DNA of 64,000 bases from Sphingomonadaceae bacterium (GTDB lineage: Bacteria > Pseudomonadota > Alphaproteobacteria > Sphingomonadales > Sphingomonadaceae): positions 1 through 64,000 of the forward strand of contig CANJUF010000010.1 in assembly GCA_947477745.1 (NCBI GenBank), read 5' to 3'. Positions within the stretch are counted from its first letter, which is position 1; the number at the start of each line of letters is the position of its first letter. A model generated the notes under the pieces. It saw nothing but the letters and a program-made list of their open reading frames with translations, was not told the DNA's origin and made no database searches. The translations under genes were made by a program, and so were the position numbers. Positions 1,522 through 50,725 of this stretch are shown in pieces.

Positions 1522-2214
1522 GTGAATTTGGCTCAAGGCCTTGACCGTTTCGGTCTTGCCGTCGGTGGAGCGATCGCGCCGATCCGCGAGCGGCTACGCC
1601 CTTTCGCCCGTCACCAGAGGACCGCACAGGGCGCCGCCGCCGCGCTTGGGCCGGAACGCGATCATCTGGTCTACATGCTCGACGGCCATGCCAAGCTCGT
1701 CGCGCGCACGCCCGGCGGCCAAGACCGGATCGTCGCCTTTCATTGCGCTGGCGATCTCGTCACCGTGCCGGCGGCGGGGCTTCACGCCTATGCGCTCGCG
1801 GCGATCCGCGATTGCAACCTTCTCGCCTTCGGGCGCACCGAACTCCTCGCGGCGGTACGCGACGATCCGGCAATGCTTGAAGCCGTGTTCAATCAGGTCA
1901 TCGACGGTCTGGAGCGCTGCCGCGAGAATGCCGTCAATCTTGGCCGCAAGAGCGCCAGCAAACGCGTCGCGAGTTTTCTTCTGACCATGGCGAAACGGGG
2001 CGGACAGGGGGCGGGCGACGCACCGGTCGTCGAGCTGCCGATGTCGCGCCGCGATGTGAGCGATTACCTTGGCCTGACTATCGAGACGATCAGCCGCCAG
2101 ATCAGCGAGATGCGCAAGCTGGGGCTGATCGCCACGCCCAGCCGCAGCCGCGTCCAGCTGCTCGATTGCGAAGCGCTCAAAGCGCGCGCCAATCATTTCG
2201 CAGGTGCGGAATAA
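1522..2214 (+). CDS. Crp/Fnr family transcriptional regulator, FixK-like
   Basis: This is a 230-residue regulator with an N-terminal cyclic-nucleotide-binding-like beta barrel (about 35-120), a dimerisation helix and a C-terminal winged HTH. The HTH holds LPMSRRDVSDYLGLT and the recognition helix ETISRQISEM. The E-x-x-S-R pattern is the one FNR proteins use to read TTGAT half sites. I see no N-terminal cysteine cluster for a 4Fe-4S centre, so it looks more like FixK or Dnr than oxygen-sensing FNR. I prefer the GTG at 1522, preceded by GGACAGG, over the upstream TTG at 1453, which falls within an FNR-type box. It sits beside relic cbb3 oxidase genes, the usual partners of such regulators. Confidence 0.88.
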   Translation: MNLAQGLDRFGLAVGGAIAPIRERLRPFARHQRTAQGAAAALGPERDHLVYMLDGHAKLVARTPGGQDRIVAFHCAGDLVTVPAAGLHAYALAAIRDCNLLAFGRTELLAAVRDDPAMLEAVFNQVIDGLERCRENAVNLGRKSASKRVASFLLTMAKRGGQGAGDAPVVELPMSRRDVSDYLGLTIETISRQISEMRKLGLIATPSRSRVQLLDCEALKARANHFAGAE

Positions 2215-2225
2215 TTTCCTCGAAA

Positions 2226-2239
2226 TTGCGCTCGATCAA
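2226..2239. promoter_or_regulatory. FNR/FixK-type box TTGCGCTCGATCAA
   Basis: This second anaerobox is one base different from the box at 1453 and starts 12 bp after the regulator's stop codon. In related genomes this position would be the promoter of the ccoNO(Q)P oxidase operon. Here the box is followed within about 50 bp by broken ccoI sequence, so it appears to be the surviving promoter element of a deleted operon. It may still drive the downstream ccoS. Confidence 0.6.
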
Positions 2240-2288
2240 TACGTGCCGGGTGCCTGGGGCGTAATCCGGACGCGACGTTTCCAGCAGG

Positions 2289-2634
2289 GGTACCCAGAAC
2301 CGCAGCCGCTATGTCCGGATCGCCGACCGTGCCTCGAAGATCTATGCCCCGGCGGTGCATACGCTTGCGGCGGTCAAGCGAAGTGGGGCTTCAGGCGGCC
2401 GACATGGTCTTCGTGCAGGCCTCGCTCATGGCGCTGCCGCGCGCGGTCGCGGCTTCGCGCCGGACCATGGCGGTCGTGCGCCAGAACTTCGTGCTCGCCA
2501 TCGGCTATAACGTGCTCGCGGTTCCGCTGGCGATGGCAGGCATGGTCACGCCCTTGATCGCGGCGGCGGCCATGTCGATCAGCTCACTGATCGTCATCGC
2601 CAATTCGCTGCGGCTGGTGAGGGCAGCGCGATGA
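2289..2634 (+). pseudogene. ccoI: Relic of CcoI/FixI copper-transporting P-type ATPase
   Basis: Two fragments of a CcoI-type heavy-metal ATPase remain in different frames. The first (from about 2298) reads NRSRYVRIADRASKIYAPAV, which matches the membrane segment that follows the A-domain. The second, in the next frame (from about 2374 to the stop at 2634), reads EVGLQAADMVFV and then RTMAVVRQNFVLAIGYNVLA, the C-terminal hinge and last two membrane helices. The transmembrane CPC motif, the DKTGT phosphorylation loop and the ATP-binding domain are missing, so the gene cannot work. The junction lies near 2365-2385. The stop overlaps the ccoS start as ATGA, the normal ccoIS arrangement. Confidence 0.8.
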
Positions 2635-2774
2635 CCGGGCTGCTGCTGCTCGTCCCGATCGCACTGCTGCTTGGCCTCAGCGGCCTCGCCGCGTTCTTCT
2701 GGGCGCTGCGCGACGGCCAGTTCGAGGACCCCGACGGCGCTGCGGCGCGCATCCTGATCGAAGATGAGGATTAG
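2631..2774 (+). CDS. ccoS: cbb3-type cytochrome oxidase assembly protein CcoS
   Basis: This 47-residue ORF is absent from the track because of its size. It has one N-terminal membrane helix (about 3-25, LLLLVPIALLLGLSGLAA), then the CcoS hallmark FFWALRDGQFEDPDG and a short acidic tail ending RILIEDED. CcoS is needed for cofactor insertion into cbb3 oxidase, a high-affinity terminal oxidase of the inner membrane. Its ATG overlaps the stop of the relic ccoI. The reading frame is intact although its partners (ccoN, O, P, G, H and most of I) are absent here, so it is probably functionless unless a second cbb3 locus exists elsewhere. Confidence 0.85.
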   Translation: MTGLLLLVPIALLLGLSGLAAFFWALRDGQFEDPDGAAARILIEDED

Positions 2775-4210: not shown

Positions 4211-4218
4211 GGGATTTT

Positions 4219-4303
4219 CGTCATTGCGAGGGGGCTTCGGCCTCCGAAGCAATCCAGGGCGGTTTGCACTGCTCTGGATTGCTTCGCTTCGCTCGCAATG
4301 ACG
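4219..4303. repeat. REP-like intergenic palindromic repeat, copy 1
   Basis: The element begins CGTCATTGCGAG and ends CTCGCAATGACG, with internal GAAGCAATCCAG and CTGGATTGCTTCG, forming a long imperfect hairpin. A second copy lies at 41223-41305. It fills the space after the amidohydrolase and before the convergent DUF1499 gene, and could act as a transcript-end hairpin. This family of repeats is common and dispersed in proteobacterial genomes. Confidence 0.85.
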
Positions 4304-4328
4304 AAGTTTGTGTCTCCTGAGGTTGGGC

Positions 4329-5069
4329 TCAAGCCCCCTTCAAATCCGCCAGAAACGCCCTCACGCGGTTGGCATTGTAGCCCAGATCGCCCACCCCGAC
4401 GCGGCTGACCGAGCGCATGTCGACCACGCTGTCCTTGCCGTCAGCGCTGGGCCGCACGCGCAGCACGACATCGTCGTTGAAGCGGATCCAGGCGGCATAG
4501 GCGGTCGCCTCCAGCCTTCCTGACGCCGGATCGGCCTTGGCAATCTTCCAGCCGCGCGCTTTCGCCAGCCTTTCCGCATCGGCGATCACCGCCGCTACCG
4601 GCTTGCCCAGCGTGATCGGCTTGAGGTCGGGGAAAGCCTTGGCGTGGATCGCGCGCCAATTTTCGACCGTTTCGACGCCGACCAGGTTGTCCTTGCGCAC
4701 TTCGAGCACTTGAAATGCCGGAGGATCGGTAAGATCGGTCGATGCGTCGTGAAGCGGCGGATATTTGGACGCAGGCACGACAATGGTCAGTACAACGCCG
4801 AGCAGCGCGGCCGCGGGAATCACGCCGGTCAGCGCCTTGCGCGCCGCGCCGGGGGCGGGCCGCCGCCAGGCGATCAGCAGCGTGATCAGGCCGATGACCA
4901 GCGCGAGCAGCGCGGCGAGAATGCCGAAGGTCAGGCCCATGAAGCCGGTCATCTTGGGAATCAGGTCGTTACGGGCGAGGGTGGTGCCAACGATCGCCAG
5001 AAGGACCGCGCCAATACCGAGCACGCGCGCCAGTCCTCCAAGCCGCTGCGACCAGGTTTTTCCTTGCAT
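4329..5069 (-). CDS. DUF1499 membrane protein
   Basis: The 246-residue protein has three predicted N-terminal membrane helices (roughly 13-30, 36-62 and 73-92), followed by a soluble DUF1499 domain from about residue 115 to the end. The function of DUF1499 is not established. I start it at the ATG at 5069, preceded by GGCGAGGGAGATTAGCC; the longer track ORF reads antisense-frame sequence of the next gene. It lies 35 bases after the radical SAM gene on the same strand, so it is probably the last gene of that operon. The downstream side is a REP-like repeat. Confidence 0.82.
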   Translation of the reverse strand: MQGKTWSQRLGGLARVLGIGAVLLAIVGTTLARNDLIPKMTGFMGLTFGILAALLALVIGLITLLIAWRRPAPGAARKALTGVIPAAALLGVVLTIVVPASKYPPLHDASTDLTDPPAFQVLEVRKDNLVGVETVENWRAIHAKAFPDLKPITLGKPVAAVIADAERLAKARGWKIAKADPASGRLEATAYAAWIRFNDDVVLRVRPSADGKDSVVDMRSVSRVGVGDLGYNANRVRAFLADLKGA

Positions 5070-41197: not shown

Positions 41198-41222
41198 GAC
41201 CAAGGATGTAGGCCGATCACTT

Positions 41223-41305
41223 CGTCATTGCGAGCGTAGCGAAGCAATCCAGAGCCAGTTGCAATACCCCTGGATTGCTTCGGGGCCTTGCCCCTCGCAA
41301 TGACG
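41223..41305. repeat. REP-like intergenic palindromic repeat, copy 2
   Basis: The same family as 4219-4303: it begins CGTCATTGCGAGCGTAGCG and ends CTCGCAATGACG, with AAGCAATCCAG and CTGGATTGCTTCG internally, forming a long imperfect hairpin. It lies between convergent genes and may help end both transcripts. Confidence 0.85.
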
Positions 41306-50711: not shown

Positions 50712-50725
50712 TTGCGCTGGATCAA
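50712..50725. promoter_or_regulatory. FNR/FixK-type box TTGCGCTGGATCAA upstream of the monooxygenase
   Basis: The 14-mer is identical to the box at 1453-1466. It is centred about 66 bases upstream of the monooxygenase start. Placing it at -41.5 puts a CATGAT hexamer (minus strand, 50689-50684) at the -10 position. It overlaps the last bases of the MFS gene, whose codons are therefore not free to vary. Confidence 0.55.

Follow-up and report, generated by a model that had tools for sequence, protein, structure and literature searches.

The locus described here is most probably (at a probability of roughly 0.93) what remains of a ccoNOPGHIS operon under FixK regulation, which would have encoded a cbb3 oxidase along with its copper and cofactor assembly genes, and which was worn down by deletions in a Novosphingobium species. 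It lies in a window of 64,000 nucleotides, the whole stretch of DNA that was analyzed, which forms the start of contig C10 in a draft assembly of 3.03 Mb (63 contigs, 98.7% complete). Judged by the amidohydrolase encoded next to the locus, its closest named relatives are Novosphingobium MAGs. In the proposed course of events, the ancestral cluster was situated between an acyl-CoA synthetase gene and the amidohydrolase gene. Through a deletion of ~6.4 kb, the ccoN leader would have become fused to mid-ccoI sequence, while a second, out-of-frame deletion of 800 bp would have taken most of the remaining ccoI. These deletions may have occurred in either order, or as a single complex event.

The regulator gene and the former ccoN promoter are retained

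The acyl-CoA synthetase gene (194-1435) lies upstream of an intact gene for a cysteine-free FixK-type Crp/Fnr regulator of 230 aa (1522-2214, plus strand). The start of this gene was set at the GTG at 1522 by alignment with a relative; the mechanically called open reading frame starts at 1453. Both the HTH_Crp_2 (E=2e-18) and the Crp profiles matched above their cut-offs, and the best NCBIfam match was FixK, at 108.6 bits, below the 300-bit cut-off of that model. The protein is 58% identical to its orthologue in the MAG HKST-UBA125, which is encoded upstream of an intact ccoN. As neither of the two contains the N-terminal cysteine cluster of the Fnr Fe-S center, the window regulator is FixK-like, rather than Fnr or FnrN.

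FixK-type boxes (TTGCGCTSGATCAA) flank the regulator gene on both sides. The first, TTGCGCTGGATCAA, is an exact pattern match upstream of it (1453-1466), and the orthologous gene in HKST-UBA125 is likewise preceded by such a box. The second, TTGCGCTCGATCAA (2226-2239), belongs to the former ccoN promoter, and is the FNR-type box that a preliminary description of this DNA had noted behind the Crp/Fnr gene. An identical box precedes ccoN by ~70 bp in HKST-UBA125, and a second MAG, SFB_Oligo_Co_9, has a nearly identical one. With at most one mismatch allowed, the pattern TTGCGCNSGATCAA, which was written after the site had been seen, occurred at four sites in the window, where 0.5 would be expected; a count of four was not attained in any of 100 shuffles. 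Alignment with the same two MAGs identified 2215-2291 (plus strand) as the former ccoN leader, which has an AGGGG ribosome-binding site at its end. Following the box, the leader reads ACGTTTCCAGCAGGGGTA; its counterpart in HKST-UBA125 reads ACGTTTCCAAGGGGTA, with the ATG of ccoN 6 nt further on.

The regulator is now without its oxidase target, and may have been kept for its service to other promoters. A candidate TTG-N8-CAA box, TTGTCGACGCGCAA (~2811-2824), is located upstream of the amidohydrolase gene, which starts near 2900. Three relatives have the box at a comparable spacing from this gene, with the sequence TTGAT-N4-CGCAA, while the copy in the window is degenerate. This motif suggests that the amidohydrolase could belong to the FixK regulon. 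A third exact FixK-type box (50712-50725) lies 24 bp before a minus-strand flavin monooxygenase-like gene, and may be there by chance.

Two junctions separate the leader and two scraps of ccoI ahead of an intact ccoS

At the first junction (2291/2292, plus strand), homology to the leader stops and homology to ccoI begins, with 1 bp shared, so that the ccoN leader is fused to mid-ccoI. The missing segment starts 6 nt before the ccoN start and comprises ccoN, ccoO, ccoP, ccoG, ccoH, and the 5' half of ccoI; its size of ~6.4 kb was taken from the length of the cluster in genome G004. What follows is a first scrap of ccoI (2292-2376, plus strand), which corresponds to approximately residues 334-361 in the numbering of the G004 homologue, and shows 87% and 88% identity to ccoI of HKST-UBA125 and G004, respectively. 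It still reads as 27 residues close to those of its homologues (RYVRIADRASKIYAPAVHTLAAV, the translation at about 2295-2375). At the second junction (2375-2376, plus strand), which carries a 2-bp (CA) microhomology, exactly 800 bp of ccoI are absent compared with HKST-UBA125, and the alignment coordinates for G004 give an equal length. The second scrap (2377-2634, plus strand; tblastn 79% identity, 1.6e-32) encodes 85 residues at the C-terminus, with the final transmembrane helices, and the stop (residues 627-712 of intact ccoI), and matches positions 475-560 of TIGR01525 (E=4.5e-20). Since 800 is not a multiple of three, the two scraps are in different reading frames. Nothing else of CcoI is left at the locus, where a truncated product would be that of a 107-aa open reading frame at 2311-2634.

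The preliminary description had recognized a fragment and the C-terminal helices of an ATPase in different frames. Both are indeed present, but they are parts of the same gene, 800 bp apart in intact relatives. It had also proposed that ccoN through most of ccoI was deleted, with a junction near 2365-2385. The reading as a deletion scar of a cbb3 locus with an intact ccoS is supported by the collinear cluster of HKST-UBA125, the differently broken locus of SFB_Oligo_Co_9, and the absence of ccoN, ccoO, ccoP, ccoG, and ccoH from the rest of the genome, but two deletions are needed rather than one: the junction in that interval is the smaller one, inside ccoI, and the main one is at 2291/2292.

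Directly behind lies an intact ccoS of 47 codons (2631-2774, plus strand), whose ATG overlaps the ccoI stop, as had been described. Its product is a short membrane protein that belongs to the CcoS/FixS family by both profiles applied (FixS/PF03597, E=2e-19, 69.5 bits, cut-off 23.1; TIGR00847, E=5.6e-20, 70.8 bits, cut-off 28.35). CcoI is a copper exporter for the oxidase, and the cbb3 complex is inactive without CcoS (PMC8267372). CcoN being gone, no substrate of CcoS is known in this genome; the protein is most likely a relic that is yet to decay. Searches of the window against Rfam gave no match. A palindromic, REP-like short repeat occurs in the window at 4214-4332 and 41219-41305 (87% alike), and a similar copy lies just behind ccoS in another member of the genus (L049:6878-6963).

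No cbb3 oxidase is encoded elsewhere in the assembly

The preliminary description had left it open whether the oxidase was lost or kept elsewhere; it is lost, as no ccoN (TIGR00780) was matched in the genome (63 contigs, 98.7% complete), and no other place in this assembly encodes the oxidase. A second cbb3 cluster in the missing 1-2% is improbable. Genes for ccoO, ccoP, ccoG, and ccoH are absent from the 63 contigs as well, with CcoO and CcoP searched over the genome using the G004 proteins. Of the components of a functional cbb3 locus (ccoN, ccoO together with ccoP, and a full-length CcoI), none was found. The genome further contains no cytochrome bd, a single, distant match to the HemN family (28%), and one COX1, which is CtaD of the aa3 type and the only heme-copper oxidase found. 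No cbb3 oxidase can be made, which leaves aa3 as the sole terminal oxidase found.

Across the genus, matches to the ccoN family were detected in 163 of 196 genomes, some of them weak and probably to other oxidases, and ccoS was detected in 157 of the 196. Several genomes that appeared to carry ccoS without ccoN were set aside: in G017, G019, G130, and G168, ccoI is cut by the end of a contig, and in G144 the contig begins inside ccoP, with ccoGHIS intact. G092 (99% complete) has a weak match to ccoS (3.6e-11) and a weak match to the ccoN family (1e-7), and is possibly another remnant.

Close relatives show the same site in different states

HKST-UBA125 (G139) has the regulator-ccoNOPGHIS cluster in full, flanked by the two genes that also border the locus in the window. 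This MAG is 63% complete and has the locus spread over two contigs, one with acyl-CoA synthetase-FixK-box-ccoN (L083) and one with ccoN-O-P-G-H-I-S-amidohydrolase (L069/L090), with a run of Ns across part of the ccoI tail. Comparison with complete loci of close relatives, which had been proposed as a check, showed the flanks of the window to be collinear on both sides and placed the ends of the deletions, with clean junctions against an intact relative.

The locus of SFB_Oligo_Co_9 (G176, contig L068/L088) is a second scar. It resembles the window in its flanking genes, in the retention of the ccoI tail and ccoS, and in that no ccoN was found. Unlike in the window, however, fixK is broken, and the leader is kept together with approximately the first 10 codons of ccoN, as are residues 207-378 of ccoG, in which one cluster cysteine has been changed to arginine. 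The ccoI tail is longer (572-712), and all junctions differ. As not a single junction is common to both, the visible deletions are independent, and the losses in the two species look independent as well, although an older lesion common to both may be hidden beneath them.

In HKST-UBA129 (G212), the same acyl-CoA synthetase and amidohydrolase genes are found (L089), but they are adjacent, without any remnant of the cluster in between. On another contig (L105), a partial ccoN is present behind its own FixK-type gene. This cysteine-poor regulator is 43% identical to that of the window and encoded directly before ccoN; beyond it lies the start of a gene resembling an outer-membrane-protein-like neighbor in G004. 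Within this clade, the cbb3 cluster has apparently changed position, and the vacant site may be explained either by loss or by never having been filled. Trees of the flanking genes gave no firm order of the four species, and the rpoB sequences of the MAGs were too fragmented to be informative.

Such movement, if it led to this site, would fit a history in which no full operon ever occupied the site of the window and the fragments stem from a partial insertion, given that in HKST-UBA129 the flanks adjoin and the cluster is elsewhere. We consider this the least probable account, as the cluster is complete at this very position in HKST-UBA125, and its regulator, leader, and 3' end are preserved, in order, in the window. 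Nearly as improbable is that the strain has an intact operon, which was collapsed or mis-joined by the assembler. Although the genome is indeed a draft, this would require two separate false junctions between flanks that agree with those of relatives, the five genes from ccoN to ccoH are missing from every contig, and a similar but different scar exists in the sister species.

Conservation of the leftovers

Between the window and SFB_Oligo_Co_9, the ccoI tail had a dN/dS of 0.034 and ccoS one of 0.105, at a dS of 0.6-0.7. These values, the preserved reading frames of both in two loci that broke independently, and the intact fixK and box in the window could point to selection on the 107-aa tail or on CcoS, for a FixK-driven role independent of cbb3, such as membrane copper handling for aa3. 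The two would then form a mini-module under FixK control, selected for a role other than the assembly of cbb3, at which two sister species would have arrived separately. We regard both proposals as unlikely. Low dN/dS as a sign of selection was mostly removed as an argument by two controls: the ccoG scrap of SFB_Oligo_Co_9, compared with HKST-UBA125, gave a dN/dS of 0.12, below that of intact pairs (0.23-0.45), and the first ccoI scrap of the window gave 0.29 against HKST-UBA125, over 27 codons only. Leftovers that must be dead are thus about as conserved, so that low dN/dS is no proof of a kept function. Moreover, the promoter of the amidohydrolase gene alone would shield the 3' end of the cluster from deletion, and CcoS has been reported as an assembly factor of cbb3 (PMC8267372).

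Under the preferred reading of an eroded operon, the constraint on the leftovers would mostly predate the losses. As the dead scraps have barely decayed, these losses look recent, and both operons probably worked until recently, which is the simplest reading of the sequences.

Comparison with known cbb3 operons

In the four close relatives, the same place holds the cluster intact, holds it broken in two different ways, or is vacant. They form a natural series for the loss of the high-affinity oxidase in an alphaproteobacterium with fallback on aa3. A literature search on cbb3 loss in Novosphingobium gave no pertinent work among the papers listed. They also call for caution, as a lone match to ccoS (or FixK) is no proof of a cbb3 oxidase.

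The locus shares its gene order, the FixK-type box before the ccoN position, and the overlap of ccoI and ccoS with the alphaproteobacterial ccoNO(Q)P-ccoGHIS operons under FnrN/FixK control. In contrast to these operons, its oxidase genes are gone, and only the regulator, the leader, two scraps of ccoI, and ccoS remain. It is an ordinary case of gene loss from a known operon, paralleled in a sister species, rather than anything mechanistically new.
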